Source of the DNA: Georgenia sp. SYP-B2076
Lineage (GTDB): Bacteria; Actinomycetota; Actinomycetes; Actinomycetales; Actinomycetaceae
DNA length: 64,000 nucleotides
NCBI RefSeq assembly: GCF_003991205.1
Contig: NZ_RXOZ01000011.1
Location: 248,001 to 312,000 of the forward strand
Reading direction: 5' to 3'
Within the stretch, counting starts at the first letter, position 1. Every line of letters begins with the position of its first letter. The notes beneath the pieces are model-generated. The model saw only the letters and a list, made by a program, of their open reading frames with translations. It was not told where the DNA came from and did not search any database. A program made the position numbers and the translations under genes. This document shows, piece by piece, positions 36,851-61,807 of this stretch.

Positions 36851-38110
36851 GTGTCCGCCGGGCCGACGATCCTGCACGCCGATCTGGACGCCTTCTACGC
36901 GTCCGTCGAGCAGCTGCTCGACCCGGCCCTGCGCGCCCGGCCGGTCGCGGTGGGGGGCAGCGCCCGCGGCGGGGTGGTCCTCGCGGCGTCCTACGAGGCC
37001 AAGTCCCACGGCGTCCAGGGCGGCATGCCCGGCTGGCGGGCCGCTGAGCTGTGCCCCTCGCTCGTCTTCGTCCGGGGGCATTTCGACCGGTACCAGCGGC
37101 TCGCGGACCAGGTGATGGACATCCTCGGCGACGTGACCCCGGCGGTGCAGCGGATCTCCATCGACGAGGCCTTCCTCGACGTCTCCGGGTCGACGCACCT
37201 GTTCGGGCCGCCGGCCGCGATCGGGGCCCTGCTCCGCCGGCGGGTGCGCGCCGAGGCGGGGCTGCCGATCTCGGTCGGCGCCGCCCGGACCAAGCACCTG
37301 GCCAAGATCGCCTCCCAGGTCGCCAAGCCCGACGGTCTCGTGGTGGTCCAGCCGGACCAGGAACGCGCGTTCCTCGACCCGCTGCCCGTCGGCCTCATGT
37401 GGGGCGTGGGCCCGGTGACGGAGCGGCGGCTGGCCGAGCGGGGCATCCACGCGATCGGCGACCTCGCCGGGGCGCCTGGCCCCATGCTGGAACGCCTCCT
37501 CGGGCGTGCGGCCGGGGCCACCCTGCACGCCCTCGCCCTGAACGAGGACCCGCGCCGGGTCACGACGCCCGGCCGGACCCGGTCGGTCGGTGCGCAGTCC
37601 GCGCTCGGCCGCCGCCCGCCCACCCCGGAGCTCGTGCGGGCGGTGCTGGGGCACCTGGCCGAGCGGGTGGCCGGCCGGTTGCGCGCCAAGGGCACGGCGG
37701 GCCGCACCGTCACCGTCCGGGTGCGGTTCACCGGCATGCGCGCGGTGACGCGCTCCCTCACGCTGCCCGCGCCCGTCGCCACCACGCTGACCCTCACCGA
37801 GGTGGCCGAGCAGCTCGCCTGGCAGGCGATCGGGGAGCAGGACGAGCCGGCGGCCCAGATCAGCCTGCTCGCCATCTCCGTGTCGAACCTGAGCCACCAG
37901 CACGGCGTCCAGCTCGAGCTCCCCCTCGCCCCCGAGGACCCGTGGCGCCCGGGGTCGGCGACGGGATCGACGAGGTGGGCCCTGGACACGTCCATGGACG
38001 CCGTCCGCGCGCGGTTCGGGCGCGATGCGGTCGGCTACCTCCCGGCGACGCTGCGGCGTTCCGGTGGGGTCCCCGACGCCTTCCGGGAGCTCGCCGAGCG
38101 GGACCTGTGA
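36851..38110 (+). CDS. dinB: DNA polymerase IV (Y family)
   Basis: 419 residues. Y-family motifs are in place: HADLDAFYASVEQ with the first metal-binding Asp, AASYEAKSHGVQGGMPG, RISIDEAFLDVSG with the catalytic Asp-Glu pair near 104, GAARTKHLAKIASQVAKPDGL, and the helix-hairpin-helix region MWGVGPVTERRLAERGI. The C-terminus is the little-finger domain. It performs error-prone translesion synthesis. The final residues carry no clear beta-clamp peptide. The GTG at 36851 starts right after the LexA box and GGGGTC. Confidence 0.95.
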   Translation: MSAGPTILHADLDAFYASVEQLLDPALRARPVAVGGSARGGVVLAASYEAKSHGVQGGMPGWRAAELCPSLVFVRGHFDRYQRLADQVMDILGDVTPAVQRISIDEAFLDVSGSTHLFGPPAAIGALLRRRVRAEAGLPISVGAARTKHLAKIASQVAKPDGLVVVQPDQERAFLDPLPVGLMWGVGPVTERRLAERGIHAIGDLAGAPGPMLERLLGRAAGATLHALALNEDPRRVTTPGRTRSVGAQSALGRRPPTPELVRAVLGHLAERVAGRLRAKGTAGRTVTVRVRFTGMRAVTRSLTLPAPVATTLTLTEVAEQLAWQAIGEQDEPAAQISLLAISVSNLSHQHGVQLELPLAPEDPWRPGSATGSTRWALDTSMDAVRARFGRDAVGYLPATLRRSGGVPDAFRELAERDL

Positions 38111-38237
38111 CGGGTGCCGCGACCCTCGCCACCGCGACCCGACCGGCGCTAGCGTTCGTGCCAGTCGCGGATCGGCGCGGATCGGCGACCGGACGGCGGT
38201 CAGCGAGGTGAGCCGAGATGTCGGCAGGGCGGTCACG

Positions 38238-39482
38238 GTGACCGGGGGCCCGCGCGCGGGTCCGCCGACGCAGCAGCAGGACCTGGTCCTGCGGCACGAG
38301 CACCGCCTCACGACCCTCGCGCTGGAGGTCCTCCGGCTGCTCGCCAAGCCCCAGGAGGACGTCGACCGGCTGGTCGCGGACCAGCTGGAGAAGAACCCCG
38401 CCCTGCTGGCGGCCGGCCCGCGACGCTGCCGGTGGTGCGGCCTGTCCCTGGTGGACGGCCGCTGCCGGGCCTGCGGAGGCCCCGTGGGCCTCATGGCGGA
38501 GCCCCCCGCGGCGGCCGACGAGCGGGACGAGGTCCGGCTCGTCGCCCGCCAGCTCGCGCCGAGGGGCTGCGAGCGTGCCGTCGACGTCGTCATGGCCGGC
38601 CTCGACGCCCGCGGCCTCCTCCCGGGAGGGCTCGCGGAGCTGACGCCGCAGGGGTGCGCCCCGGCCCAGCTCGCCGCCGGTCTGCGCGCCGTCCAGGAGG
38701 CGGGACCACCGGGGACGGCGGCGCCGGACGCCGCCGCCGCGCTGCTCGCCCAGGCGCGCTGGCACGCGGCGCACGGCGGGCCACCGCTCCTCGTCCCCCT
38801 GCTGGGCGACCACCTCGCCGCGTTCGCCACCGACCGCGCCGCCGCGGCCGCCGCCCTCGGCGTGGGCGTGGCCGAGGTCGACGCCGTGGCCCGGTTCGTG
38901 CGCGCCCGCCTGACACCCGCGCCCCTGCCCAGCGGCGGCGGCCCGCGCCACCCCGCGCCGCCCGACGTCATCCTGCGGGCCCAGGACGGCGAGGTGAGCG
39001 CCGTCGTCCTGCGGCCCGACGACCTCGGGCTGGCGCTCGCGCCGGACGGGCCCGGGCGGGGCTGGCAGACCGCGCGCGCGGAGGCCCGCTCGCTCCTGGA
39101 CGTGCTGGACCGCCGGGCCGGTACCCTCCAGCGGCTCGCGGACGTCCTCGCGCACCGGCAGCGGGGGTTCGTGCTCCACGGGCCGGCGGCGCACCGCCCG
39201 CTCACGCGGGCGCAGGTCGCCGCGGAGGTGGGCGTCCACCCCTCGACGGTCTCCCGGGCGGTCGCCGGCGCGGTGGCCCGGCTCCCGGACGGGCGCATCG
39301 TCGCGCTCGCGGACTTCTTCGGCGGGGCCGTCTCCGCCCGGGCCGCCCTCGCCGCCATGCTGGGGTCCCCGCGGCCGCCCCGCAGCGACGCTGAGGCCGC
39401 GGCGCGCCTCGCCGAGACGGGGGTCGTGCTCGCCCGGCGGACCGTCGCCAAGTACCGCCGCGAGCTGGAAGAGGGCTCGTAG
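38238..39482 (+). CDS. rpoN: RNA polymerase sigma-54 factor (RpoN)
   Basis: 414 residues from GTG 38238 (GTG 38208 is an alternative). Region I is the Gln/Leu-rich activator-responsive helix (QQQDLVLRHEHRLTTLALEV then LEKNPALL, 12-57). Where most sigma-54 proteins have an acidic linker there is a zinc-ribbon-like C64xxC67-x8-C76xxC79. The core-binding region follows, then a helix-turn-helix (LTRAQVAAEVGVHPSTVSRA, about 315-340), and the RpoN box ARRTVAKYRR near the C-terminus, which reads the -24 element. Sigma-54 directs polymerase to GG-N10-GC promoters and needs an AAA+ activator. Both are found just downstream. Sigma-54 is generally thought absent from actinobacteria, making this gene unusual. 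A TAGCGT box at 38150 may be its promoter. Confidence 0.9.
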   Translation: MTGGPRAGPPTQQQDLVLRHEHRLTTLALEVLRLLAKPQEDVDRLVADQLEKNPALLAAGPRRCRWCGLSLVDGRCRACGGPVGLMAEPPAAADERDEVRLVARQLAPRGCERAVDVVMAGLDARGLLPGGLAELTPQGCAPAQLAAGLRAVQEAGPPGTAAPDAAAALLAQARWHAAHGGPPLLVPLLGDHLAAFATDRAAAAAALGVGVAEVDAVARFVRARLTPAPLPSGGGPRHPAPPDVILRAQDGEVSAVVLRPDDLGLALAPDGPGRGWQTARAEARSLLDVLDRRAGTLQRLADVLAHRQRGFVLHGPAAHRPLTRAQVAAEVGVHPSTVSRAVAGAVARLPDGRIVALADFFGGAVSARAALAAMLGSPRPPRSDAEAAARLAETGVVLARRTVAKYRRELEEGS

Positions 39483-39529
39483 CCCGGGAAGACGGCTTCT
39501 CCCCGGCGCGCCCGGACGCCTATCGCCGC

Positions 39530-39541
39530 GAAGCGTGCTTC
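39530..39541. promoter_or_regulatory. candidate activator site (UAS) for the sigma-54 promoter
   Basis: GAAGC-GT-GCTTC, a perfect dyad flanked by CGC, lies about 100 bases upstream of the expected start site, where enhancer-binding proteins usually bind. A half copy (GCTTCGCG) occurs at 39592-39599. Assignment to the downstream activator is inference. Confidence 0.35.
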
Positions 39542-39607
39542 CGGTGGCGTGGCCGGGCGGCCCTCGGGGCGGGCGTAAGTCCCCTCGTGCCGCTTCGCGC
39601 GCCGCCC

Positions 39608-39623
39608 TGGCACGGAACGTGCA
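39608..39623 (+). promoter_or_regulatory. sigma-54 promoter of the seven-gene operon
   Basis: TGGCACG-GAAC-GTGCA: a perfect -24 element and GG-N10-GC spacing (GG 39609-39610, GC 39621-39622), differing from the TTGCA -12 consensus at one base. Transcription would start near 39633, about 40 bases before the first start codon. The presence of rpoN upstream and a GAFTGA activator at the operon's far end support the assignment. Confidence 0.78.
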
Positions 39624-39673
39624 TATCGAAGGGTGTCGGGTCTCGTGCCGCTGCGACTGGAGGGAGCTGGGCC

Positions 39674-40303
39674 ATGCATGACATCGACAGAGCGCTCTTC
39701 GAGACCGAGGAGGAGGGGGAGACCTTCGAGGGAGAGTTCGCGGACAACCGTGAGCTCGCGCTCGCGGGCGAGCTCCTGGAGGTCACCAACGAGGAGGAGC
39801 TCGACCAGTTCCTCGGGAAGCTGCTCAGCGGCGCGGTGAAGGCCGGCCGCTCCTTCCTCGCCTCGGACGCCGGCAAGGCCGTCGGCGGGTTGCTCAAGAG
39901 CGCGGCCAAGACCGCCTTGCCCCAGGTCGGCCAGGCCCTCGGGAACTACCTCGTCCCCGGCGCCGGCGGCGCCGCCGGCCAGCGGGCCGGCGCGTTCGTG
40001 GGCAAGACCCTGGGGCTCGAGGTCGAGGGCATGACGGCCGAGGACCGCCAGTTCGAGACCGCCCGCGGGTTCGTCCGCTTCGCCGACGAGATGGCGCGCA
40101 CGGCCGTGGCGGCGCCGCCGACCGTCCCGGCGGCCGTGGCGGCGTCGCGCGCGGCGACCATCGCCGCGTCCCGTCACCTCCCGGGGCTCGTCCCGGTGGT
40201 CCAGCGGCTGCGCCCGCCGGGCGCGGGGCAGGGCGGTCCGCGCCGCCCCCGCTCCGGGCGCTGGGTGCGGCGCGGCTCGTCCATCGTCATCCTGAACGCC
40301 TAG
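39674..40303 (+). CDS. acidic/glycine-zipper protein A of the sigma-54 operon
   Basis: 209 residues; ATG 39674 has GGAGGGAG upstream. Three parts: an acidic leader (ETEEEGETFEGEF, 10-22), a core with LLEVTNEEELDQFLGKLLSG (39-58) followed by a Gly/Ala-rich helical region (60-115) that could insert in or line a membrane or shell, and a conserved R-GFVRFADEMA helix with AAPPTVPAAVAA. The last 35 residues are basic. It is a paralogue of the next gene product, with a near-identical DNA block encoding the TNEEELDQFLG segment. Similar acidic 'EFE' proteins occur in other phyla with no known function. First gene after the sigma-54 promoter. Confidence 0.85.
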   Translation: MHDIDRALFETEEEGETFEGEFADNRELALAGELLEVTNEEELDQFLGKLLSGAVKAGRSFLASDAGKAVGGLLKSAAKTALPQVGQALGNYLVPGAGGAAGQRAGAFVGKTLGLEVEGMTAEDRQFETARGFVRFADEMARTAVAAPPTVPAAVAASRAATIAASRHLPGLVPVVQRLRPPGAGQGGPRRPRSGRWVRRGSSIVILNA

Positions 40304-40313
40304 GAGTGGGGTC

Positions 40314-41258
40314 ATGACCGCTTATGAGAACGAGAACGCCTGGGCCGGCGAGGGCGGCCTGCAGGAGTGGGAGCTCGTCGGCGAGGGCCCGGGGTACGAG
40401 ACGGGCTGGGCCGGCGAGGGGGAGGGCGAGCTGTTCCAGGGCGAGGAGGAGGACGAGGGCGAGTACGCGGGCGAGTCCGAGGAGGGGGAGACGGCCCTCG
40501 CCCAGGAGCTCCTGGAGATCACCAACGAGGAGGAGCTCGACCAGTTCCTCGGCAGCCTCGTCCGCGGCGCCGGCAAGTTCCTCAAGTCGAGCGTGGGCAA
40601 GTCGGTCCTGGGCGTCCTGAAGAGCGTCGCCAAGACCGCGCTGCCCGTGGTCGGCTCCGCCATCGGGAGCTTCGTGGCGCCCGGCGTCGGCACCGCGATC
40701 GGCGGGAAGCTCGGGTCGATGGCCTCCAAGCTGCTCGAGGTCGACGAGCAGGAGATGCTCGGCGAGGTCCAGGCGGAGTACGAGGCCGCGCGCCGGTTCG
40801 TCCGGTTCGGGCGCGCTACCGTCCGGTACGCCGCCGCCGCACCGCCCAACGTCCCCCCGGGCGTCGTGGCCCGCACCGCCGCCACGACGGCGGCCCGGCG
40901 CTACGCCCCCGCCCTGCTCCGCGGCTCCTCCCAGGGCTGGCGGTCCCGCCGCGACGAGCGCTACGGCGCCCGGGGCCACCAGCAGGCCCCCCGCCAGTCG
41001 TACGGCGGCCGCGGCCAGGCCGGCTACGGGCAGCAGGCCTACGGGCAGGGGAGCTACGGCCAGGGGGGCTACGGCCAGGGGGGCTACGGCCAGGAGGGCT
41101 ACGGCGGCCAGGGCTACGGGCGGCGCCGCGCGCCGCGCGGCTACTACTACCCCGCGTACCCGGCGGCCGACGACTTCGCCCCCTGGGCGGCCGCCTGGGG
41201 CGACGGCGGTGGCCAGACGTGGGACGGCGACGACGGCGGGGGGTTCGAGTACCCATGA
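40314..41258 (+). CDS. acidic/glycine-zipper protein B with YGQG repeat tail
   Basis: 314 residues, paralogue of protein A. Residues 1-60 are strongly acidic (EGEGELFQGEEEDEGEYAGE). The core repeats LLEITNEEELDQFLGSLVRG, then a glycine-zipper stretch (GSAIGSFVAPGVGTAIGGKL, about 119-138), then RRFVRFGRATVRYAAAAPPNVPP. The tail is low-complexity: a basic Arg/Gln segment, five or more YGQG-type repeats (about 235-270), and an aromatic acidic end. Such Tyr/Gly/Gln tails favour self-association or condensation. It begins 10 bases after gene A and overlaps the protease gene by ATGA. Structural function is inference. Confidence 0.88.
   Translation: MTAYENENAWAGEGGLQEWELVGEGPGYETGWAGEGEGELFQGEEEDEGEYAGESEEGETALAQELLEITNEEELDQFLGSLVRGAGKFLKSSVGKSVLGVLKSVAKTALPVVGSAIGSFVAPGVGTAIGGKLGSMASKLLEVDEQEMLGEVQAEYEAARRFVRFGRATVRYAAAAPPNVPPGVVARTAATTAARRYAPALLRGSSQGWRSRRDERYGARGHQQAPRQSYGGRGQAGYGQQAYGQGSYGQGGYGQGGYGQEGYGGQGYGRRRAPRGYYYPAYPAADDFAPWAAAWGDGGGQTWDGDDGGGFEYP
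41023..41121 (+). repeat. tandem 15-bp repeats encoding YGQGG
   Basis: Several imperfect to exact copies of a GGCTACGGCCAGGGG unit encode the YGQG(G/S) tail of protein B. The central copies are identical at DNA level, so the number of units may vary between strains by slippage. Confidence 0.8.
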
Positions 41259-42577
41259 CCGCCCTGCAGGTGACCGCCACCACCGCTCGGTTGCTCGAGG
41301 TCGAGGCGGAGGCGCTGCTGGTGCGTCTCGGGCAGGTGCGGCCGTTCGTGCTGACCGAGACGATGGTGGTCGCGGCGAACCTGCCCTACCAGGCCCACCG
41401 CGCCATCGAGCGGTTCCTGTTCGACGGGCGCATGGCGCTGCGGCGTGAGGTCGTCGGCTTCCTCGGGTGGCTCCACGGTGCGGGCCGGGGCGCGCCGCCC
41501 GAGGAGCAGCAGCGCCGGTTCGTGGTCATCCGGCTGCGGTTCAACGACGTCCTGTCTCAGCTCGACATGTTCGCCGAGGTGCTCACGCAGCGCAGCGAGC
41601 AGACCACGGGTGTGTGGCTCTCCGGCCTCGACCACCTCGCGGCCGACGCGCTGCGGATGCCCGCGCCGCACCCGCAGCTGCCGCCGCAGATCTGCTATCT
41701 CGCCCGCGGGTCGGGCGCCGCGATCCGGCGGGCCCGGACCCGGCTGCCCGGCGGCCGCCTCAGCCCGGTGGCGATCATCCGCGTCCCGCGCGAGCGGATG
41801 GTCGGGCATGGCGTCGCCTCGTCCCTCGTGCACGAGGTCGGGCACCAGGCCGCGGCCCTCCTGGGTCTCGTCGAGTCGCTGCGCGCGGAGATCCGGGCGC
41901 GGGGCGACGGCGGAGCGTGGGAGACCTGGCACCGCACCGTCTCCGAGTGCGTGGCCGACTTCTGGGCGGTCGGCAAGCTCGGGATCTCCGCCACGCTCGG
42001 CCTCATGGCGGTCGTCAGCCTGCCGAGGTACTTCGTCTTCCGCCCGTCGGGGGAGGACCCGCACCCCACGCCGTACCTGCGGGTGCTGCTCAGCGCGGCG
42101 GTCGGGGACGTGCTCTACCCCCACCCGCAGTGGCGGCGCATGGCCGAGACGTGGCGGGCCTTCTATCCCACCGGCGGGCTGCCGGCGGACCACGCGCGCG
42201 CCGTCGCGGAGCTCGAGCCCACGGTGCCGGCCATGGCGCGGCTGCTCGCCGGCCACCGCCCGCCCAGCCTGGGCGGGCGCGCGCTCGCGGAGATCATGCC
42301 GCTGCGCCGCCGCCGTCCGGAGCAGCTGCTGGCCATGCACGCCGCCTGGCGGGACGATCTCGGCATCGTCGCGCGCCTGCCGCCCACGCTCGTCTTCGCC
42401 GCCGTCGGCCAGGCGCGGGCCGCCGGCCGGGTCAGCGCCGACCAGGAGAGCGACGTCCTCTCCTCCGTCCTCACCGCCTGGGCCGTCCGAGGCAGCCTCG
42501 AGGTCCTCGAGCGCGACGCCCGCGTCCCCTCCGCCGTCGGCACCCGTGCCGCCCAGCTAGAAAGGAAACTCCCATGA
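41255..42577 (+). CDS. putative zinc metalloprotease (HEVGH)
   Basis: 440 residues. The motif H193-E-V-G-H197 follows LVHEVGHQAAALLGL, and a downstream E231-C-V-A-D could supply the third zinc ligand, as in gluzincin-type peptidases. The N-terminal 190 residues are helical and unrecognised; the C-terminal part has an ATLGLMAVVSLPRYFVF segment that could touch a membrane. No signal peptide. ATGA overlaps on both sides couple it to proteins B and D of the operon. It may process the two acidic/glycine-zipper proteins. Catalytic motif is seen; substrate is inference. Confidence 0.85.
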   Translation: MTALQVTATTARLLEVEAEALLVRLGQVRPFVLTETMVVAANLPYQAHRAIERFLFDGRMALRREVVGFLGWLHGAGRGAPPEEQQRRFVVIRLRFNDVLSQLDMFAEVLTQRSEQTTGVWLSGLDHLAADALRMPAPHPQLPPQICYLARGSGAAIRRARTRLPGGRLSPVAIIRVPRERMVGHGVASSLVHEVGHQAAALLGLVESLRAEIRARGDGGAWETWHRTVSECVADFWAVGKLGISATLGLMAVVSLPRYFVFRPSGEDPHPTPYLRVLLSAAVGDVLYPHPQWRRMAETWRAFYPTGGLPADHARAVAELEPTVPAMARLLAGHRPPSLGGRALAEIMPLRRRRPEQLLAMHAAWRDDLGIVARLPPTLVFAAVGQARAAGRVSADQESDVLSSVLTAWAVRGSLEVLERDARVPSAVGTRAAQLERKLP

Positions 42578-44178
42578 CACCACCGCGCGCCAGGGCCACC
42601 GCCGGAACGCCGGAGCAGCCCGTGAGCATCAGGCTGGGCCGGGTCGACGCCGGCTCCGTCGTCTTCCGGATGGCCCACCTCCTGCCGGACCGGACCTACG
42701 GGGGCGTCCTGCGTGCCGCCGCCGGGGACGCGGTCGGCGTCATCGAGCTGGCCGGGACCGAGGCCGAGGCGGACCTCGACATCCACGACCTGCTGGTGGA
42801 CCAGGCATCGGGGCCGTACCTGTTCGAGATCCGCCACCAGCCCGCCGGCACGGAGCCGGCCCCGGCGAGCTACGACGAGACCGACCCGGCGACCTGGGTC
42901 CTGGACACGCAGCTCGCCTTCCAGTACGTGGCCGCCGCGGACGCCGTGGAGGAGCCGCCGGCGACGACGGTCCGCCTCACGCGCACGGCCACCGAGCCCA
43001 CCGGGGACGAGGTCCTGACGAGGATGGTCCTCGCCGGGTCCCGGCAGCGGCAGTTCGAGTTCTACGACGCCTACGTGCGCGCGCGGTTCGGCTCCCGCGA
43101 GCGCGTCCTGGCGCCCAACGCGTACGACCGCCTCGTCGACATCACGCGGGAGTTCCTCGCGCAGGCGCGGTGGTCCGAGGTGATCGACCCCACCGACCGG
43201 TACTTCAAGAACGGCGTCCTGCCGTACGTGGCCAACGTCGCGGAGCGCTACGCCGACGTCGTCGACAACCGGGACGTCCTGTCCGCGCTCGACCCGCAGA
43301 TCCTCGACGAGCCCCTGCCCGTCGAGCTCATCTGGAGCTACTGGCAGGAGGAGGGCGGCCTCGTGCAGAGCCTCAACCTCATCCTCGCCCGCTTCCAGAA
43401 CCGCCGGGTGGGGCCCGGCCCGAACCCGCTCGCGCGGTTCGACCTCCACCCGCTGCGGCCGCTCCGCCACCTGCTGTGGACGTTCGCGGAGGAGGAGGTC
43501 TCCCGGTTGACGGTGCGGCGCCGGGCGGCGGAGTACGAGTTCGAGTACGGCCTGGACCTCATCGGACGCGCGGTGCCCGGGCGGGGCCTGTACGTCGAGC
43601 GCCGCAACCGGTTCCTCGAGTCGTTCCACGCCCTGCTCCACGAGGCCCACAAGTTCTTCCACCGTGACGACGACACCACCGTGGTGGCGGACCCGTTCCC
43701 CGTCCTCAACGCCCTGCGGGACACCCACCTCGTCATGGCGGAGGGCGCGGAGAACCAGTTCGGCGACCTCCCCACCGAGGCGCGGGTCCAGATGCTCGTG
43801 ATGCAGGAGATCCTCGCCCAGCCCGAGATGCGCGACTTCCTGGGCGGCCGGCCGATGATGCCGTACGAGGAGCCGTGGATGGACCGGGTCGACACCATGA
43901 AGAACCTGTTCGGGTGGAGCCCGACCAGCATCACGCACTTCCACGAGCTCGCCGTCTACGGAGAGCAGCTGCTCCTGACGATCCGCTGGGGCAACTGGAA
44001 CGACACGTCGCTCGACGCCGCCAGCGCGGCCAACTGGGCCCGGGCGCTGCGCCCGCAGATCCAGCGCTACGTCCACGCCTACCGGGCCGTGACCGGGGTG
44101 GACCTGTCCGAGACGGTCGACGCCACGATGCCGGCGCTGCTCCTCGCGCGCAGGCTGCAGCCCGCCCGCCGGGCGTAG
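42574..44178 (+). CDS. unknown protein of the sigma-54 operon (534 aa)
   Basis: 534 residues, with AAAGGAAA ribosome site and ATGA overlap with the protease gene. Residues 1-130 look like a beta-rich domain (VSIRLGRVDAGSVVFRM, LPDRTYGGVLRAAAGDAVG). The rest is mainly helical, with an acidic and aromatic character (EYEFEYGLDLIGR, HALLHEAHKFFHRDDDTT, WSPTSITHFHELAVYGEQ). Several His/Glu pairs could bind metal but I see no known motif. No signal peptide or membrane helix. Position implies work with the metalloprotease. I do not recognise the family. Confidence 0.85.
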   Translation: MTPPRARATAGTPEQPVSIRLGRVDAGSVVFRMAHLLPDRTYGGVLRAAAGDAVGVIELAGTEAEADLDIHDLLVDQASGPYLFEIRHQPAGTEPAPASYDETDPATWVLDTQLAFQYVAAADAVEEPPATTVRLTRTATEPTGDEVLTRMVLAGSRQRQFEFYDAYVRARFGSRERVLAPNAYDRLVDITREFLAQARWSEVIDPTDRYFKNGVLPYVANVAERYADVVDNRDVLSALDPQILDEPLPVELIWSYWQEEGGLVQSLNLILARFQNRRVGPGPNPLARFDLHPLRPLRHLLWTFAEEEVSRLTVRRRAAEYEFEYGLDLIGRAVPGRGLYVERRNRFLESFHALLHEAHKFFHRDDDTTVVADPFPVLNALRDTHLVMAEGAENQFGDLPTEARVQMLVMQEILAQPEMRDFLGGRPMMPYEEPWMDRVDTMKNLFGWSPTSITHFHELAVYGEQLLLTIRWGNWNDTSLDAASAANWARALRPQIQRYVHAYRAVTGVDLSETVDATMPALLLARRLQPARRA

Positions 44179-44189
44179 GGCGGTGCGCG

Positions 44190-45233
44190 GTGCTCGACCT
44201 CACGTCCGCGAGCTTCCTCGGGTTCCGCCACGCGTCGGCGGAGCTCGGGGGGTGGGACCGGCTCACGACCGGCCGCCCGGCCGCGCTCGACGAGCCGCCC
44301 GCCGCCGCCGCCGTCGCCGGGCGGGTGGCGCGCACGCAGGGCGCCGCGGCCGGCGTGGTGCACCGCTCCACCCTCCACGCGCTCGGCGACGTCATCGAGC
44401 TCGAGCGGCCCGACGCCGTCGTCGTCGACGCCGCGGCCTACCCGTTCGCCGAGCTCGCCGCCGCGCGGGTCCTGCTCGGCGGCCGCGGGCAGCTGGCGAC
44501 CTTCGCCCACCACGACGCCGCGGACGCGCGGCGCGTGGTGGCCCGGTCCGGCGGGCGCGTCCTGCTCCTCACCGACGGCTGGTGCGGCGGGTGCAACCAT
44601 CCCGCGCCGCTGCTGGAGCTCGAGGCGCTCGCGCGGCGGTGCGGGGGTGTGCTCCTGGTCGACGACACCCAGGCCCTCGGGGTGCTCGGTCACCGGGGGG
44701 CGGGCGGCCCGCCGTTCGGGCGGGGCGGGGGCGGGACGTTCGCCTGGCTCGGCGGGCGCCCCGGCGCGGCCGTGCTCGTGGCGTCCCTGGCCAAGGCGTA
44801 CGGGGCGCCGCTCGCGGTCACGAGCGGGCCCGGCGGGACGGTCGCGCGGCTGCGCACCATCGGCACCCGGGTGCACGCCAGCCCGCCCAGCGCCGTCGAC
44901 CTCCTCGCCGCCCGTGCCGCCACGGGCGACCCGGGCGGCAACGAGCGACGGCGGGCACGCCTGGGCCGGCTCGTCCTCGCGGTCCGGGCCGCGCTGCGCC
45001 GCCTGCGGCTGCCGGTGCTCGGCCTGCCGTTCCCGGTCGTGCACACGAGGGGCCCGACGCCGGAGAGCACCCGGCGGCTGCACGCCCGCCTGCTGGCCCA
45101 GGGCGTGCGCGCCCTGCTGCTGGCGCCGCGGTGCCTGCCCGCCGTCACCCTGTCCCTCGCGCTGCGCGCCGACCTGGACCCCCGCGCCGCGGAGGAGGTG
45201 GCCGCCGCGCTGGCGGCGGCCACGGGCCGATGA
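44190..45233 (+). CDS. PLP-dependent alpha-oxoamine-synthase-like protein
   Basis: 347 residues from GTG 44190. It resembles the fold-type I group of KAPA synthase (BioF)/glycine C-acetyltransferase: VLLLTDGW, LLVDDTQALGVLGHRG, and VLVASLAKAYGAPLAV with the likely Schiff-base lysine. In the family the VDDTQ stretch is normally D-E/D-A-H; here His is Gln, and the protein is about 40 residues short at the N-terminus, so the chemistry may differ. Normal members join an amino acid to an acyl-CoA. It could make or tailor an amine or modify a protein in this operon. Function unproven. Confidence 0.85.
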   Translation: MLDLTSASFLGFRHASAELGGWDRLTTGRPAALDEPPAAAAVAGRVARTQGAAAGVVHRSTLHALGDVIELERPDAVVVDAAAYPFAELAAARVLLGGRGQLATFAHHDAADARRVVARSGGRVLLLTDGWCGGCNHPAPLLELEALARRCGGVLLVDDTQALGVLGHRGAGGPPFGRGGGGTFAWLGGRPGAAVLVASLAKAYGAPLAVTSGPGGTVARLRTIGTRVHASPPSAVDLLAARAATGDPGGNERRRARLGRLVLAVRAALRRLRLPVLGLPFPVVHTRGPTPESTRRLHARLLAQGVRALLLAPRCLPAVTLSLALRADLDPRAAEEVAAALAAATGR

Positions 45234-45997
45234 TCGTCGACGCGCACTGCCACGCGGGCACGGGCGACGGGCTGACCGGCCCCTGGGACACCGCGGCGCC
45301 GCTGAGCACCTACCTGCGGCGGGCGGACGCCGCCGGCATCGACCGCACCGTGGTGTTCGCGCCCCTCACCTCGGACTACCCGCGGGCAAACGCCGAGGTC
45401 GCGCGGCTCGTGCACGGCTCCCGGGGCCGGCTCACCGGGTTCGCGTTCGTGAGCCCGACGGCCGACCGCGGCCACGTGGCCGAGATGGTCCACCAGGCGG
45501 TCGACGGGTGGGGGTTCCGCGGCCTGAAGGTCCACTGGCGCGACGGCCACATCACCCGGGAGATCGCCGACGTCGCCCGCGCCCGCGCCCTGCCCGTCAT
45601 CTACGACCCCGCGGGGGACACCGGGACGGTCGAGACGGTCGCGCGGGCCTACCCGGACGTCGCGTGGATCATCCCGCACCTGTCGTCCTTCGCCGACGAC
45701 TGGAAGGCGCAGACCGCGTTCGTCGACCAGCTGGTCCGCCTGCCCAACGTCTTCGGCGACACCTCCGGCGTGCGGTACTTCGACGTCCTCGAGGACGCCG
45801 CCCGGCGCGCCGGCCCCGGAAAGGTCATCTTCGGCACCGACGGGCCGTTCCTCCATCCCGCCGTGGAGCTGACCAAGGTCCTCGCCCTCGGGCTGGACCC
45901 GCCCGCCCGCGCGCTGGTCCTCGGGGGCAACATCACCCGTCTCATGCGCGGCGTGCGCCGCGACAGCCACCGGCCGGTCCCGGCCGCCATCCCCTAG
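45230..45997 (+). CDS. amidohydrolase_2-family metal-dependent hydrolase
   Basis: 255 residues. It opens with MIVDAHCHAG, the metal-binding HxH of the amidohydrolase superfamily. KVHWRDG near 100, VIYDPAGD, IIPHLSSFADDW (His near 145) and KVIFGTDGPFLHP (catalytic Asp near 205) complete a TIM-barrel active site of the decarboxylase/lactonase branch. It should act on a small cyclic or carboxylated substrate. ATGA overlap with the PLP gene suggests sequential steps. One expected ligand (H in the NPGD position) is replaced by YDPAGD. Confidence 0.88.
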   Translation: MIVDAHCHAGTGDGLTGPWDTAAPLSTYLRRADAAGIDRTVVFAPLTSDYPRANAEVARLVHGSRGRLTGFAFVSPTADRGHVAEMVHQAVDGWGFRGLKVHWRDGHITREIADVARARALPVIYDPAGDTGTVETVARAYPDVAWIIPHLSSFADDWKAQTAFVDQLVRLPNVFGDTSGVRYFDVLEDAARRAGPGKVIFGTDGPFLHPAVELTKVLALGLDPPARALVLGGNITRLMRGVRRDSHRPVPAAIP

Positions 45998-46005
45998 GAG
46001 GACCC

Positions 46006-46590
46006 ATGTCGATGCAGCCCGCCGAGCTCCTCCAGGAAGAGGTGGCCCCCACCCCCAGCCGGCTCCAGCCGCCGCTCCGCTACCGCGGCACGCCAGGCTT
46101 CGGCGAGATCAAGGCGCACACGTACGCGGGTATCCGTGAGGGCATCCGCGACCTGCGTCGGCACGCGGCGGCGGCGGCCGCCGGCGACGAGCCCGTGCTG
46201 CTGACGTACGTCTACCGGCCGCGCTCGTCGACGCTGACCGTCTACGCGCTGCGCCCCCGCGCCAGCATCCTCCAGCCGGGCAGCCGGTCGCCGAGCAAGC
46301 TGCCCCGCGGGGGCCGGGCGTGGGTCGACGGCCTGGGCACGTGGCACGAGGTGACGTCCATCGCGGTGCCCGCGCACCCCGAGATGAAGAGCTGGCTCCA
46401 GGTCGTCGGGCCCACCGTGCGCGGCTCGGCCTTCGAGCCGCTGGTCCGCCGGGCCTTCATCGAGGGGCTCCGGCCGAAGCGGCACCTGACCGCGCGCAAG
46501 GACCCGGTGGCCACGGGGGCGGACGTGCGCTGGCAGGAGCTCGCCGAGTACCTCTACGAGCTCGCCGGGGAGCTGTCGGCGCCGCGTTGA
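46006..46590 (+). CDS. unknown protein of the sigma-54 operon (194 aa)
   Basis: 194 residues with a perfect TAGGAGGA ribosome site. It starts with an acidic/proline leader, then RYRGTPGFGEIKAHTYAGIR, and a small beta region (PVLLTYVYRPRSSTLTVYAL, WHEVTSIAVPAHPEM). The C-terminal 70 residues are basic then acidic. No signal peptide, membrane helix or recognised fold. It is the last gene of the operon; its final 37 bases overlap the 3' end of the convergent activator gene. Confidence 0.82.
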   Translation: MSMQPAELLQEEVAPTPSRLQPPLRYRGTPGFGEIKAHTYAGIREGIRDLRRHAAAAAAGDEPVLLTYVYRPRSSTLTVYALRPRASILQPGSRSPSKLPRGGRAWVDGLGTWHEVTSIAVPAHPEMKSWLQVVGPTVRGSAFEPLVRRAFIEGLRPKRHLTARKDPVATGADVRWQELAEYLYELAGELSAPR

Positions 46591-47948
46591 CCGGGCGCCG
46601 CCGGCGGGCCGCCCCCCTCGGGCGCCGCACCGTCCCGCCCGCCGGCGGTGCGGTAGTCGACGGCGCGACGGCTGACCCCCAGGAGCCGCGCGGCGCCCGC
46701 CGCGCCGCCCCCTTCCGCGAGCGCGACCTCCGTCGCCAGCGCCGCCGTCGTCTCCTTGAGCCGGCGCAGCCCCACGCCCGCGACGAGCGCGCCGCGGACG
46801 GCGACGGCGAGGTCGTCGGCCCACCCGCGCGCCCGCGTGGTGGGTACGGCGCCGACGGCGGGCCGGTCGTCGGGCGGCAGGTCGCCCGGCGTGACGGGGC
46901 CGTCGCCGACGTGGCGGGCGGCCACCCGCACCGCCAGCTGGCGCAGGTCCCGGACGTTGCCGGGGTAGTCCCGGTCGGTGACGACGGCGGCGACCTCCGG
47001 GGTGATGCCGGGCGCCGGCTCGCCCGGGCGCGCGGCGGCGAGGAAGTGACGGAAGAGCGGGACGATGTCCTCGGGTCGCTCCCGCAGCGGCGGCACGCGC
47101 ACGGTCGCCGCCGCCAGCCGGTAGTACAGGTCGCGGCGGAACCGGCCGGCCTCCGCCTCGGCGAGGAGGTCGCGGTTCGTGGCCGCCACGAGCCGGAAGC
47201 GGGCCCGGTGCCAGCGGGTGCCGCCCACGGCCTTGTACGTCCCCTCCTGCACCACGCGCAGCAGGGCCGGCTGGAGGTCCGTCGGCAGCTCGCCGACCTC
47301 GTCGAGCAGGAGGGTGCCGCCGTCGGCGAGCGCGAAGGCCCCCAGCCGCGCGCCCGACGCGCCGGTGAACGCGCCCTTCTCGTGCCCGAAGAGCTCCGAG
47401 CCCAGGAGCGTGGGCACGACGGTCGTGCAGTCCACGAGCTGGAGCTCGGGCTTGCCCGACCGGGAGTCCAGCCGGTCGACGAGGCGCGCCACGACCTCCT
47501 TGCCCGTCCCCGTCTCCCCGGTGAGCAGGACCGGCGAGTGCGTGAAGCGGGCGATCTCCACCACGTCACGGAGCAGGTCGCGCCAGCGGGGCGACGCCCC
47601 GACGGCCATCGAGCGGACCTCGGCGGAGTCGACCAGCGCCTCCACGGCCGCCCACCGCTCCAGGCGCACCAGGACCTCGCGGGCGTCGGCGCCCGGGGCG
47701 CGGAGCACATCGGCCGCGCCGGCCTCCAGGAGCCACCACGGGCTCAGGTCCTCGCCGGTCACCGCCACGAGGACCCGTCCGCCGCCGGCCAGCGTCGCCA
47801 GCAGCTCGTCCGACGCGCCGTCGGCGACGACGACACCCGGTTCCGGGCCCTCCCGCTCCTCGACCAGGCCGGCCGCCAGCAGCGCGCCGACGAGGCCCTG
47901 GACGGTGTCGGTCCGTCGTGCCAGCACGCGCAGCCACGCCACAGGCAC
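46554..47948 (-). CDS. sigma-54-dependent transcriptional activator (bEBP)
   Basis: 464 residues from GTG 47948 (GGGAGG upstream). Domains: 1-110 a receiver-like fold without an obvious phosphorylatable Asp (VLVAVTGEDLSPWWLLEAGA); AAA+ domain with Walker A GETGTGKE (144-151), the sigma-54-contacting GAFTGA loop (192-197), Walker B GGTLLLDEVGEL (about 210-221) and an FRRDLYYRLA arginine segment; and a C-terminal Fis-type helix-turn-helix (GAARLLGVSRRAVDYR). GAFTGA is used only to remodel sigma-54 holoenzyme, so it is the natural partner of the rpoN gene here. Its gene converges on the operon it presumably controls. Confidence 0.92.
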   Translation of the reverse strand: MPVAWLRVLARRTDTVQGLVGALLAAGLVEEREGPEPGVVVADGASDELLATLAGGGRVLVAVTGEDLSPWWLLEAGAADVLRAPGADAREVLVRLERWAAVEALVDSAEVRSMAVGASPRWRDLLRDVVEIARFTHSPVLLTGETGTGKEVVARLVDRLDSRSGKPELQLVDCTTVVPTLLGSELFGHEKGAFTGASGARLGAFALADGGTLLLDEVGELPTDLQPALLRVVQEGTYKAVGGTRWHRARFRLVAATNRDLLAEAEAGRFRRDLYYRLAAATVRVPPLRERPEDIVPLFRHFLAAARPGEPAPGITPEVAAVVTDRDYPGNVRDLRQLAVRVAARHVGDGPVTPGDLPPDDRPAVGAVPTTRARGWADDLAVAVRGALVAGVGLRRLKETTAALATEVALAEGGGAAGAARLLGVSRRAVDYRTAGGRDGAAPEGGGPPAAPGQRGADSSPASS

Positions 47949-48153: not shown

Positions 48154-49122
48154 TTACTTCGTCTCGGCCGACGGCGGGACGGGCCCGTACAGCGGCAGGA
48201 CCTCGGCCATCTCCATGTCCGCCGTGGCCTGGATCAGCGCGAGCAGCTCGGGATCGAGCCCGGGGGAGAACTCCTCGAACCGTTCCTCGGCGATCGTGGC
48301 GGGCACGCCCTCAGGGGCCTGCTCGGCGGCCATGAGCTCGGTGCCGTCCTTCGACGGCGACATGCCCTGGAAGATCCGGCCCGCCTCTGAGGCGCTCATG
48401 AGGTCGAACGTGTACTGCTTGCTCTGCAGCCCCAGGTCGAGCAGCTTCTTGACCTCCGGGAACTTCTCCGCGCTGGTCTTCGGGATGGGCAAGGCCTTCG
48501 CCCAGTCGACACCCAGGGTCTCGAGGGCGCGTGCGTACGCGTTCTCGTGCGCCTGGTCGCGGACGATGAGGTAGGCGATGGTCGACCGGGCGGTCTTGTT
48601 GTCCGTCATCTCGTAGATCCGGCACTTCTGCAGCCGGCCGGTGGACTCGAGCATGAGGTTGTAGAGCAGGTCCAGCACGAGGTTGCCGGAGTTGTACACG
48701 TAGCTGCCGCTCCACGGGTTCCCCGCGGCGTCGACGGGCAGCGCCCCCTGGGCGCCGACCAGGTAGTGGTGGATGTTGCTGGTGTCGAGCGCGATCCTCA
48801 GCGGTGTCGCCCCGCCGGCGCCCGGGGTGTCGAGGGGGTCGGTCGGCTTGCCGTTGTAGCGGGGGGAGCCGTCCAGCAGGCGCGCGATGGTGGTCCCGAT
48901 CAGCTCGACGTGGCTGATCTCCTCCGTGCCGATGCCCTGGAGCAGGTCGCGGTACGGCTTGCCGGCGGGTCCCCGGAAGTTGATGCTCTGGAACAGGTAC
49001 TGCATCATCGTCCGCATCTCGCCGAACTGCCCGCCGAGCCCCTCCTGCAGGGCGTTGGCGGCCGCCGGGTCGGGCTCGTCGGCGACGATCTCGTTGATGA
49101 GGCGTTGCACGTGCAGGTACAT
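48154..49122 (-). CDS. manganese catalase
   Basis: 322 residues from ATG 49122. Matches the di-manganese (non-haem) catalase family: YLHVQRLINEIVADEPDPAA at the start, EMRTMMQYLFQSINFRG and GIGTEEISHVELIGTTIARL (Glu/His metal ligands), GSYVYNSGNLVLDLLYNLMLE, and a second ferritin-like helix pair RSTIAYLIVRDQAHENAYARAL. It breaks down H2O2 in the cytoplasm. It is a single-gene unit with a strong terminator. Upstream there are two palindromes that may bind a redox or metal regulator. Confidence 0.92.
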   Translation of the reverse strand: MYLHVQRLINEIVADEPDPAAANALQEGLGGQFGEMRTMMQYLFQSINFRGPAGKPYRDLLQGIGTEEISHVELIGTTIARLLDGSPRYNGKPTDPLDTPGAGGATPLRIALDTSNIHHYLVGAQGALPVDAAGNPWSGSYVYNSGNLVLDLLYNLMLESTGRLQKCRIYEMTDNKTARSTIAYLIVRDQAHENAYARALETLGVDWAKALPIPKTSAEKFPEVKKLLDLGLQSKQYTFDLMSASEAGRIFQGMSPSKDGTELMAAEQAPEGVPATIAEERFEEFSPGLDPELLALIQATADMEMAEVLPLYGPVPPSAETK

Positions 49123-49215
49123 ACTGTCCTCCGGCTCGAGCGAAGAGCGGCGACGTCGGTCCCACGCTGCGGAGATGTCACCGCAAGGTCGTCGCCCACG
49201 CTTCCGCACGACCCG

Positions 49216-55837: not shown

Positions 55838-57010
55838 GTGACGACGCGCGCGCCCCGGGCGGCCCTGCTCGCGGCGCTGCTGGCGCTGGTGCTCGCGTGC
55901 TGCGGGCCCGCGCAGCGCGACGAGGCCACGGAGCCCTCGATGGCGCCCACCTCGCCGGGGGCCATGCGGCTCGCCGTGGTGGGGGACTCGATCACCGACG
56001 CCGACAGCCGCGACCTGTCCGGCGGGCGGCCGGGGCCGGGTTCGTGGGTCTTCTACGCCGCCGGGGGCGAGGTGGCGTTCGTGGGCGGGTGGGCCGAGTG
56101 GGGTGCGACGACGGCGCAGATGGCGGCGGCCGCCCGCCCGGTCCCGGCCGACGTGCTCGTCATCCTGGCCGGCACCAACGATGCCGGCAGCGGCGTGCCG
56201 TTCGCCCAGACCGCCGCGCACCTCGTCGCGGTCGCCGATGCGGTGGGGGCGCAGCGCGTGGTGCTCTCGGCGGTGCCGCCGATCGACGCGGCTCCGGAGG
56301 TCGCGACCGAGCTCAACGCCCGGCTCTCGGGCCTGGCCCGGGACCACGGGTGGGAGTGGGTGGACGCCGCTGCCGGGCTGCGCGACGGAGACCGTTTCGC
56401 TCCCGGGATGAGCACCGACGGCCTGCACCCGACCCGTGCGGGCGCCCGGGTCATCGGCGGCGCCGTCCGCGACGCCCTCCTGGCGCGCGGCCCGGTGCCG
56501 CGGGCGTGGGAACATAGCGGTATGGCAATGCGTGAGATCCGTGTCGTCGGTGATCCTGTGCTGCGCACTCCGTGCGCCGAGATCACCGACATCGATGACC
56601 GTGTCCGTTCCCTGGTGGAGGACCTGCTGGAGACCGTCGACGCAGACGGCCGGGCCGGGCTGGCCGCCAACCAGATCGGGGTCGGCCTGCGGGCCTTCTC
56701 CTGGAACATCGACGACGAGGTGGGCTACGTGCTCAACCCCCGGCTCGTCGAGGTCTCCGAGGACGAGTACCAGGACGGTGACGAGGGCTGCCTCTCCGTC
56801 CCCGGCCTGTGGTTCCCCACCCAGCGCGCGTGGTACGCGCGTGTCGAGGGGATCGACCTGGACGGCAAGAAGGTCGTCGTCGAGGGGGAGGAGCTCATGG
56901 GGCGCTGCCTGCAGCACGAGTGTGACCACCTCGACGGGATGCTCTACCTCGACCGCCTCGAGAAGGGCGTTCGCAAGAAGGCGATGAAGGCGATCCGCGA
57001 GCAGCTCTAG
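55838..57010 (+). CDS. SGNH hydrolase lipoprotein reading in frame into peptide deformylase
   Basis: From GTG 55838 the frame is open for 390 residues. Residues 1-25 are a lipoprotein signal ([13 protein letters not shown]). Residues 35-228 form an SGNH/GDSL esterase: block [14 protein letters not shown], block [11 protein letters not shown] and block [10 protein letters not shown], with Ser, Asn, Asp and His all present. No stop codon intervenes before the deformylase sequence at residue 229. Either one fused polypeptide is made or, more likely, deformylase has its own internal start and the long form is a minor product. A secreted lipoprotein attached to a cytosolic ribosome enzyme would be hard to rationalise; an assembly or sequencing slip should be excluded. 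Confidence 0.65.
56522..57010 (+). CDS. def: peptide deformylase
   Basis: 162 residues from ATG 56522 (ATG 56528 is an alternative). All three family motifs are intact: [17 protein letters not shown] (motif 1, GxGxAAxQ variant), EGCLSVPG (motif 2, metal-binding Cys) and [16 protein letters not shown] (motif 3, HExxH). It removes the formyl group from nascent proteins at the ribosome and is usually essential. No separate stop or clear Shine-Dalgarno divides it from the SGNH coding region. Motifs leave no doubt about the enzyme; its true start is uncertain. Confidence 0.92.
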
Positions 57011-57027
57011 CCCACGGGCGGCACGCC

Positions 57028-57053
57028 CGCGCGGCGCCCCCGCGCGGCGCCCC
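57028..57053 (+). repeat. tandem duplication of a 13-bp unit after def
   Basis: CGCGCGGCGCCCC occurs twice in direct succession 17 bases beyond the deformylase stop. It may contribute to a terminator structure or be a simple slippage product. Confidence 0.5.
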
Positions 57054-57275
57054 CGCTCCGGGTGGGGGCATCGGCGTGCGGCCGGTGCGACCAGCGTCGA
57101 ATCCCGGCGGGGCCGATATTCCGGTGCGGAATGGTCCGCCGGAAACCGACGGCGCCGCGACCTTTCCGTCCCCGCGGCCGTGTGTTTACGACCGGATACG
57201 TCTCATTTAGGCATCATTCCGTCGTGACACGCGTTCTTTACCCGCGTTCGGTAGCGCGGCCGCGCCGCGTCGGGC
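57054..57275. other. non-coding stretch between def and DUF3145
   Basis: Part of a 362-base gap. It is less GC-rich than its surroundings near 57180-57245 (GTTTACGACCGG, CTCATTTAGGCATC), where a promoter for the downstream gene probably lies, but no pair of -35/-10 boxes stands out. No gene, RNA gene or strong dyad is seen. Confidence 0.4.
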
Positions 57276-57371
57276 ATGATGATGACTGTTCGCCGCGCGA
57301 ACACGTTTCGCCTGGTCATGCGTGAGGTCGTTGGGGAAGACGCATCTCGACACACGACCAGGAGGAGTTGA
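57276..57371 (+). CDS. possible 31-codon upstream ORF before DUF3145
   Basis: ATGATGATG begins a 31-residue frame (MMMTVRRANTF...) whose TGA ends one base before the DUF3145 ATG and whose final codons contain that gene's ribosome site (AGGAGGAG). This could couple translation of the two. No protein family recognised; may be chance. Confidence 0.22.
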   Translation: MMMTVRRANTFRLVMREVVGEDASRHTTRRS

Positions 57372-57372
57372 C

Positions 57373-57873
57373 ATGAGTGGTGCCCACACCCGCGGCGTCA
57401 TTTTCGTGCACTCTGCGCCCCGTGCGCTGTGCCCACACATCGAGTGGGCCACGGGGACGGTGCTCGACGCCCGTGTAGCCATGGAGTGGACCGCCCAGCC
57501 GGCCGCCCCAGGGCTGTTCCGTGCTGAGTACTCCTGGGGCGGACCTGTCGGCACCGGGGCGCGTCTGGCATCGGCGCTGCGCGGATGGACGCACCTGCGT
57601 TACGAGATCACCGAGGAAGCGAGCCCGGGCTGCGACGGCGGACGCTGGTCGCACACCCCCGAGCTCGGGATCTTCCACGCGCAGACGGACGTGCACGGCA
57701 ACGTGGTGGTCCCGGAGGACCGCGTCCGCGCAGCGCTGGAGTTCGCCACGGAGCCGGCGCGGATGCGCCAGGAGATGGAGCTCGCCCTCGGGCAGGCCTG
57801 GGACGACGAGCTGGAGCCCTTCCGGTACGCGGGTGCGGGTGCCCCCGTCCGGTGGTTGCACCGGGTCGGCTGA
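57373..57873 (+). CDS. DUF3145 family protein
   Basis: 166 residues from ATG 57373 (AGGAGGAG). Sequence features SGAHTRGVIFVHSAPRALCP, HIEWATG, AQPAAPGLFRAEYSWGG and LRYEITEEASPGCDGGRWSH are typical of DUF3145, a family confined to actinobacteria and often found beside the fatty-acid synthase genes. Its function is unknown. No signal peptide. The gene is convergent with the fab cluster, separated by two hairpins. Confidence 0.9.
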   Translation: MSGAHTRGVIFVHSAPRALCPHIEWATGTVLDARVAMEWTAQPAAPGLFRAEYSWGGPVGTGARLASALRGWTHLRYEITEEASPGCDGGRWSHTPELGIFHAQTDVHGNVVVPEDRVRAALEFATEPARMRQEMELALGQAWDDELEPFRYAGAGAPVRWLHRVG

Positions 57874-57899
57874 GACCGCCGACCGGGCGGTGAGCCGGC

Positions 57900-57922
57900 G
57901 GCCGGCCACCCACCGGCCGGCC
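57900..57922 (+). terminator. hairpin after DUF3145
   Basis: GGCCGGCC-N7-GGCCGGCC, an 8-bp inverted repeat 27 bases after the stop of DUF3145. Each arm is itself palindromic. Likely contributes to termination. Confidence 0.5.
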
Positions 57923-57975
57923 GTCGGCCGGCTGCTCCCCACCGGTCGGCCGCACCCGGCCACCAGACAGAAGAC

Positions 57976-58010
57976 GACGACGGCGCCCCCCGCGGGGGCG
58001 CCGTCGTCGC
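57976..58010. terminator. strong bidirectional terminator between DUF3145 and fabF
   Basis: A perfect 15-bp stem (CGACGACGGCGCCCC and complement) with loop CCGCG, 21 bases beyond the fabF stop on the minus strand. It separates the convergent DUF3145 and fab transcripts. Confidence 0.88.
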
Positions 58011-58031
58011 CTTACGTGTGTCGGTGCGCGC

Positions 58032-59273: not shown

Positions 59274-59425
59274 GACGTGCTCCAGGTGGCTCGGACGGCG
59301 GCACCGAGGCGCCGGCCGTGGGTGGGTGACGCGGCGGCGCCGCGCCGGGACGGACGGCCGGGACGGCGGTCCGCCCGGGCGCGGCACCGGGCCGCGTCGG
59401 TTGGGCGCCTGCGCGCCCCTCCGTG

Positions 59426-59677: not shown

Positions 59678-59800
59678 GGGGGGTCTCCGTTTCGTTGGGG
59701 TGAAAGTTGTCGGTTGACAGTGTGGTCGGGACGGGGGGCGCACACCAGGGGGCGCGCGGCGCGAGCGGGCGTGATGCCGCACTCCCCGTCACGAGGGCGG

Positions 59801-61752: not shown

Positions 61753-61807
61753 CCTCCCACTCTGCCAACCGCGGCGGCACGGACCGTGCCTCCGACGCCT
61801 ACCAACT

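Follow-up and report, generated by a model that had tools for sequence, protein, structure and literature searches.

How could a gene system that depends on the alternative sigma factor sigma-54 (RpoN) be operated in an actinobacterium? Actinobacteria are devoid of a sigma-54 system according to PMC3162934. A 2025 survey (PMC12316311) reports RpoN in four of 173 cases, one of them misclassified, judges the phylum from domain scores and similarity to be effectively without functional RpoN, and argues that the RpoNs of Alloactinosynnema, Modestobacter and Citricoccus are non-functional remnants. The question is raised by a 64-kb stretch of the genome of Georgenia sp. SYP-B2076 (4.28 Mb, 37 contigs; contig NZ_RXOZ01000011.1, positions 248,001 to 312,000), termed the window in the following, where an rpoN gene, a sigma-54 promoter, a seven-gene operon and a gene for a sigma-54 activator (bacterial enhancer-binding protein, bEBP) are found within 10 kb (Table 1). 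Between dinB and a Mn-catalase gene, this island is arranged as rpoN, an intergenic control region, the codirectional genes B to H, whose seven open frames (39674-46590) lead away from the promoter, and the convergent activator gene. An earlier note on this DNA had described the same components, i.e. an RpoN with its RpoN box, a GG-N10-GC promoter, the operon and a GAFTGA activator at its far end, and had interpreted them as a transferred, autonomous regulon around an undescribed system. The observation was confirmed and the interpretation is supported overall, with restrictions concerning region I of RpoN and the time of transfer (see below); two dyads upstream of the promoter and a CxxC-x8-CxxC insert in RpoN were found in addition. 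Judged from its sequence, the island is very probably an autonomous sigma-54 regulon.

Sigma factor, control region and activator

The window RpoN exceeds the Pfam cut-offs for the DNA-binding domain (Sigma54_DBD, 1.2e-24) and the core-binding domain (Sigma54_CBD, 2e-8; 34.6 bits compared to a cut-off of 22.9) and contains the RpoN box ARRTVAKYRR. Its score against TIGR02395 (8.8e-32, 110.7 bits) lies under the curated cut-off of 277.35, which is a naming threshold and not a functional test. For region I, a model of our own was built from 11 of 20 other RpoNs (a simple pattern found 13, from which two divergent ones were excluded). It matched the window protein at approximately residues 12-56 with 15.9 bits, compared to 5.6 bits for the best of 1000 shuffled decoys, and placed four of the five RpoNs encoded in actinobacterial islands (see below) above all decoys. 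The zinc-ribbon-like insert follows region I and precedes the core-binding domain. Its four Cys columns are invariant across three aligned island RpoNs, that of locus L042 being aligned via a one-residue gap, while the L062 protein keeps both CxxC pairs and the L096 protein one CxxC pair plus CC; the insert is shared by all five island RpoNs and is incomplete in two. None of the 20 other RpoNs contains two CxxC pairs and two contain a single one; the only paper listed for a sigma-54 with a zinc ribbon, from an incomplete library, deals with nodule metabolomics. Phylogenetically, a branch with support 100/98 separates the five island RpoNs from the 20 others. A PADLOC match of the window RpoN to mad1 (0.045) lies over its helix-turn-helix.

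In the control region, the TGGCAC and TGC elements ahead of gene B provide the only site with at least 10 of 11 consensus positions in the window, and two activator-site-like dyads are situated 66 to 121 bp upstream of it. The arrangement was compared in 18 operon loci, five actinobacterial and 13 others (proteobacterial, plasmid and Nitrospira), of which the fetched stretches were subjected to a crude gene-calling method of our own. In 17 of them, a promoter-like site that agrees at nine or more of the 11 positions lies ahead of the operon; the first frame called in L042 overlaps with this site. A search of 362 kb, comprising the other loci entire and 26 kb of the window, detected 13 perfect CGAA-N6-TTCG dyad pairs whose starts are 15-60 bp from each other. 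All are located immediately upstream of the operon and thus in 13 of the 18 loci; no such pair arose when the complete set was simulated 30 times with a Markov model. The spacing is 41-43 bp in 12 of the 13 proteobacterial, plasmid and Nitrospira loci and 20 bp in L041. Dyads with 7/8 and 8/8 positions are found 20 bp apart in L042 and L062 and 32 bp apart in L046. In our reading, spacings near 21 and 42 correspond to about two and four helix turns. The actinobacterial genome G986 has two promoter-like sites, and its second dyad starts 46 bp before its promoter-like site.

Across the entire host genome, a GAAG-N4-CTTC pair with a 27-33-bp spacer is present at one location. The pattern TGGCAC-N6-TGC has 22 matches compared to 157 for the reversed control pattern, which is richer in CpG and not neutral, so that these numbers are read as no more than a lack of excess. 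Of the 21 other promoter-pattern sites, 20 were inspected. Each of these is located in a coding-like stop-to-stop frame according to a crude G+C test, by which intergenic sites can be overlooked.

The N-terminal part of the activator matches no Pfam family, and no sensor domain, over the cut-off. A C-terminal Fis-type helix-turn-helix (HTH_8) is recognized in 8 of 15 activator members at 0.1, that of the window being only weak (0.38). Over its AAA domain the protein matches the RtcR models of PADLOC and, weakly, TRIP13. In a quick tree, the operon-linked activators (5 actinobacterial, 11 proteobacterial and 1 from Nitrospira; L009 ends before its activator, which is not covered) group together with a Shimodaira-Hasegawa-like approximate likelihood ratio support (SH-aLRT) of 100 and separately from 26 of the remaining activators of two hosts; the four rows L099-L102, labelled generic, are duplicates of island proteins.

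Table 1. Coordinates and properties of the island features and of the two flanking genes in the window
Feature	Position	Strand	Remarks
rpoN, divergent sigma-54, 414 aa	38238-39482	+	GTG 38238; alternative GTG 38208 adds 10 aa
Cys4 (CxxC-x8-CxxC) zinc-ribbon-like insert in RpoN	38427-38474	+	residues 64-79; Pfam DZR 0.049, below cut-off
activator-site-like dyad 1 GGAAGACGGCTTCT	39487-39500	.	6/8 consensus positions
activator-site-like dyad 2 CGAAGCGTGCTTCC	39529-39542	.	7/8 positions; starts 42 bp past dyad 1 start
-24/-12 promoter TGGCACGGAACGTGC	39608-39622	+	10/11 consensus positions; 51 bp before B start
gene B, 209 aa	39674-40303	+	acidic start, Gly/Ala-rich middle, tail GRWVRRGSSIVILNA; B/C homologues in 18 operon loci
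gene C, 314 aa	40314-41258	+	B paralogue; Gly-rich segment, Tyr/Gly-rich C-terminal part
gene D, 440 aa	41255-42577	+	gluzincin-like HExxH ... ExxxD
gene E, 534 aa	42574-44178	+	no family; C-terminal two thirds conserved
gene F, 347 aa	44190-45233	+	similar to alpha-oxoamine synthases, pyridoxal phosphate (PLP) enzyme; Lys202 kept
gene G, 255 aa	45230-45997	+	Amidohydro_2 metal-dependent hydrolase, 2.5e-16
gene H, 194 aa	46006-46590	+	last operon gene; no family
sigma-54 activator (bEBP), 464 aa	46554-47948	-	GAFTGA; Sigma54_activat 1.7e-52; convergent to operon
dinB	36851-38110		left neighbour of island
Mn-catalase gene	48154-49209	-	right neighbour of island

Distribution and history of the island

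The host genome contains one RpoN, which is that of the island, and one clear Sigma54_activat match (181 bits), again in the island, four further matches at 21-34 bits being taken as other AAA+ proteins. Together with the single genomic location of the activator-site pair and the same pairing in four further actinobacterial hosts of other families, this supports the notion of a self-contained regulon. The host is apparently not full of unrelated sigma-54 regulons, as judged mainly from the single activator and from the lack of excess of the promoter pattern.

Searches for RpoN gave no match in eight congeners and 28 other members of the family and two matches in 22 other members of the order. 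A draw of 396 genomes of the order yielded ten with an RpoN match at 1e-3, four of them at 64-89 bits (G000, G050, G058 and G783) and the other six partial, three at 23-25 bits, just over the Pfam cut-off, and three under it. The corresponding draw for D, likewise 396 genomes and similar in appearance, its identity with the former being unstated, gave seven matches. Four of more than 500 bits belong to the same four genomes, which represent four families, and the other three, at 73-127 bits, to genomes without RpoN (G457, G667 and G737). A hand estimate that ignores relatedness puts the chance of this four-in-four overlap at about one in a billion. Among 394 genomes of the class, seven have an RpoN match at 1e-3, of which G000, G058 and G986 score 81-89 bits and the other four 20-23 bits. 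Strong RpoN matches in the sampled class genomes thus amount to five hosts, the window host included, each with rpoN beside the operon or a part of it. G783 and G058 carry all the genes, arranged in the same order. G986 belongs to another order of the class; here B/C, D, E and the activator surround rpoN, with no match to F or G. In G050 rpoN adjoins the activator, followed by B/C and D, and the pairing is seen only in part because the contig ends after D. At 1e-20, G050, G058, G783 and G986 contain one activator each, and one Nitrospira and one Pseudoduganella host 34 and 19, the operon-linked one included. The parts, their conservation and their co-occurrence are documented at the level of sequence. 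In a draw of 396 genomes of the phylum, 21 match RpoN at 1e-3 and 18 exceed the cut-off, 15 of these (127-197 bits) outside the class of the host; the claim of absence is therefore limited to this class. Outside the class, but within the phylum, a divergent RpoN likewise adjoins an activator in L043 and L044 (G337 and G393), with no match to B-E in the 12 and 14 kb fetched.

Outside the actinobacteria, a scan of genome contigs with E detected ten loci in Burkholderiales and Nitrospira, and plasmid records provided copies from Rhizobium (two), Ensifer and Paraburkholderia and one cluster around a D-like protein (L048). Ten contig loci and three plasmid copies read as operon loci (L045-L047) make up the 13 non-actinobacterial operon loci, in whose fetched stretches no rpoN match was found. 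A canonical RpoN (192-220 bits) is encoded elsewhere in all five tested host genomes of such loci. Relatives of D were found neither in viral contigs nor in phage records. Three D-like clusters were noted. At L064:6825-10664 (G737, a genome without RpoN), a large acidic protein and a protein with a SIR2_2 domain (Pfam 9.5e-12) are encoded close to the D-like protein, and the locus may represent a relative of the module that is free of sigma-54 and has a neighbour resembling defence genes. The clusters L065:4596-12630 (G667) and L048:7558-16456 contain proteins rich in E/F and Gly and, by eye, a LuxR-like regulator frame in place of the sigma-54 activator; L048 also carries a 55% relative of G. 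Proteins of the three clusters that had been considered by eye as relatives of E were dropped at hhalign probabilities of 0.6 to 2.9%.

The activator and D trees argue for the activator and the cargo as old partners across phyla, to which rpoN would be an actinobacterial addition or of which it would be a retained part. In the D tree three actinobacterial islands cluster; the E tree was set aside because of its long branches. Regarding transfer, the patchy presence and the cross-phylum relatives argue for such an event at some time, whereas its recent occurrence is not supported: the G+C content of the island (0.766, compared to 0.738 for the rest of the window) bears no mark of recent arrival from a donor of lower G+C, no integrase was seen in the island, and the congeners provided no clean empty site. 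The gene dinB is found in six of eight congeners at 81-83% identity with differing flanks. In G006 and G007 it lies about 6 kb, with other genes between, from a block matching window positions 56522-62930, compared to 18 kb in the window, which indicates that the stretch is variable. At L139:3193-4305 of congener G008, just downstream of dinB, a phage integrase is accompanied by frames that look prophage-like by eye, and insertions may occur preferentially on the 3' side of dinB. Other neighbours in the window are consistent with an actinobacterial host, namely a DUF3145 protein, of an actinobacterial family, and a cystathionine-synthase-type gene, its two best matches in the plasmid collection being to Nonomuraea and Nocardia.

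Several observations weigh against the interpretation as an autonomous regulon. Agreement at nine or more of the 11 promoter positions is frequent (12 sites in the window, one of them at 10), and the site of L046 reaches just 8. The window dyads match at 6/8 and 7/8 positions with no perfect one in the 26 kb examined, the dyad spacing varies (20 in three islands, 32 in L046), and G986 has a differing dyad, present twice, 42 bp apart. Pfam Sigma54_AID does not match the window RpoN, and region I of L042 (3.4 bits) falls under the best decoy. In the D tree, two of the five actinobacterial islands are without clear placement and all five group in 34% of the bootstrap trees; AlphaFold models of D and E are unusable (mean pLDDT, the predicted local distance difference test, of 52 and 38, respectively).

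Two other explanations of the island have to be considered. The first, an ancestral actinobacterial sigma-54 system that was vertically kept, lost from nearly all lineages and not moved between genomes, would fit the RpoNs of 127-197 bits in 15 of 396 genomes from other groups of the phylum and the G+C content of the island, which does not look foreign. However, the island RpoNs are separated from those of the other groups by the branch of support 100/98, the island activators group with the proteobacterial operon-linked ones, and the presence in four of 396 order genomes (four families) and in none of the 36 congeners and family members would require many losses, which renders this scenario distinctly unlikely. 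Very unlikely is also the second, the decayed remnant argued for in PMC12316311 with the operon read by an ordinary sigma factor: the missing AID match, the scores far under the curated RpoN cut-offs, the long branches in the RpoN tree and region I of L042 speak for it, but open frame, RpoN box and operon linkage are retained in five of five hosts, the promoter and paired dyads lie upstream of the operon, region I beats all 1000 decoys in four of five proteins, and the island RpoNs form one clade.

The cargo operon

Which function the regulon might serve is indicated by few features of the cargo proteins. B, C, D, E and H match no Pfam family over the cut-off, with sub-threshold matches for C (0.024) and B (0.18), and none of the seven proteins matches an anti-phage defence model of PADLOC at 0.1. 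Of 22 loci searched across phyla, 13 contain the core motif of B and C, and 10 encode proteins, 11 in total, that close with a tail like GRWVRRGxxIVI. C contains a low-complexity repeat rich in Tyr, Gly and Gln (YGQGGYGQ...) at window positions 40998-41120. In D, residues H193, E194, H197, E231 and D235 are invariant in all 11 sequences; HExxH followed by a downstream ExxxD is the motif rule of gluzincins, and D is likely a gluzincin-like zinc peptidase on these grounds. The distant D-like protein of L065 aligns to D with an hhalign probability of 98.6%. A profile search of the PDB gave no relative of D at E 1 and, for E, one match at 0.85 that was judged to be due to chance; some other members of E have very weak Ig-like matches. 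At the thresholds used, D and E are without match in Pfam, NCBIfam, PADLOC and PHROG, in agreement with the proposal of an undescribed system. F exceeds the cut-off of Aminotran_1_2 (7.8e-5) and stays far under that of bioF (5.7e-12), and its PLP lysine K202 is present in 14 of 14 rows. All 15 rows of G keep residues H6, H8, H150 and D204, the D-like cluster L048 contributing one row (L099-L102 being excluded from both counts). H has a 39% relative in L062; its match in L041 is weak (E 0.002). A scan covered ten additional proteins from related loci. Five in operon loci match over the cut-off, and the neighbouring slot contains PG_binding_1 in L006, PG_binding_1 and GIY-YIG in L045, Glucosaminidase, DUF2272 and PG_binding_1 in L047, Amidase_2 in L096 and a trypsin-like domain in L007; in L048 an M20 peptidase was found.

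We tentatively consider the cargo, with low confidence, as an envelope-directed protein module. B and C might form an envelope- or particle-forming scaffold which is processed by D with E as partner, F and G might make or modify a small molecule, and the exchangeable slot would supply wall- or nucleic-acid-active enzymes. Just as tentatively, the system as a whole could be a mobile module shared across phyla, in which a Gly-rich scaffold, a zinc peptidase and the E protein form a machine that assembles or delivers such enzymes and that adapts to sigma-54-free hosts via its own zinc-ribbon sigma-54. A polymorphic effector module directed against other cells with swappable wall- or nucleic-acid-degrading enzymes, a possible but doubtful alternative, would be in line with the wall-, GIY-YIG- or trypsin-like domains in the slot of five loci. 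However, neither a secretion apparatus nor an immunity gene was identified, the H protein of the window belongs to no family, the Tox-REase-9 match of H in L041 is below the cut-off, and three other operon-locus proteins have no match over the cut-off. Unlikely appears the production of a modified peptide, with B and C as precursors, D as maturation peptidase and F and G as tailoring enzymes: small paralogous proteins do adjoin a peptidase-like protein and two tailoring-type enzymes, but B and C are long for precursors (209 and 314 residues), their core motif recurs across phyla in the 13 loci instead of varying freely, and L096 has no match to F or G.

The proposed circuit and known sigma-54 systems

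For the autonomous regulon we propose the following scenario. The island RpoN would bind the core polymerase of the host and park it at the promoter (39608), which the activator, positioned at the two dyads, would open by means of ATP and its GAFTGA loop, thereby turning on B-C-D-E-F-G-H as a single unit. Binding, activation and the restriction to a single target are inferred. In hosts with their own sigma-54, such as Proteobacteria and Nitrospira, the pair of activator and operon, devoid of a local rpoN, would borrow the sigma-54 of the host, and in actinobacteria lacking sigma-54 rpoN would travel along with the pair. The island appears to be a natural example of genes which pass a regulatory barrier to their transfer because they bring the required sigma factor along, within a phylum described as having no working sigma-54. 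With one promoter and one activator, the function of an actinobacterial RpoN becomes directly testable, and the island could supply an orthogonal switch for hosts of high G+C content. It also points to a conserved operon without assigned function that spans at least three phyla. Neither the operon nor a self-contained sigma-54 island was found described among the literature matches listed from an incomplete library.

Compared to regulons of the NtrC/NifA type, the island shares the core- and DNA-binding domains of RpoN, the RpoN box and a recognisable region I as well as the GAFTGA AAA+ activator, the -24/-12 promoter and the upstream dyads. It differs in that the regulon apparently has a single promoter, RpoN contains the Cys4 insert and a weak region I, the host is otherwise without sigma-54, and the activator has no recognised sensor domain. 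Second rpoN genes on plasmids or megaplasmids, as in Rhizobium and Bradyrhizobium DOA9, are alike in placing RpoN on accessory DNA. The window RpoN matches 182 plasmid records, none of which covers 80% of the protein; the 25 matches listed cover 43-46%. The hosts of plasmid-borne second rpoN genes also have chromosomal sigma-54. In contrast to the island, RpoN is absent from both tested plasmids with the operon. The RpoNs of Alloactinosynnema, Modestobacter and Citricoccus in PMC12316311 are likewise rare and divergent, have poor domain scores and belong to the same phylum. They differ in that the accessible part of that survey reports no gene neighbourhood and judges them to be non-functional. 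These and the island RpoNs are probably the same family, and for the hosts of the islands the sequences argue against the conclusion reached there.

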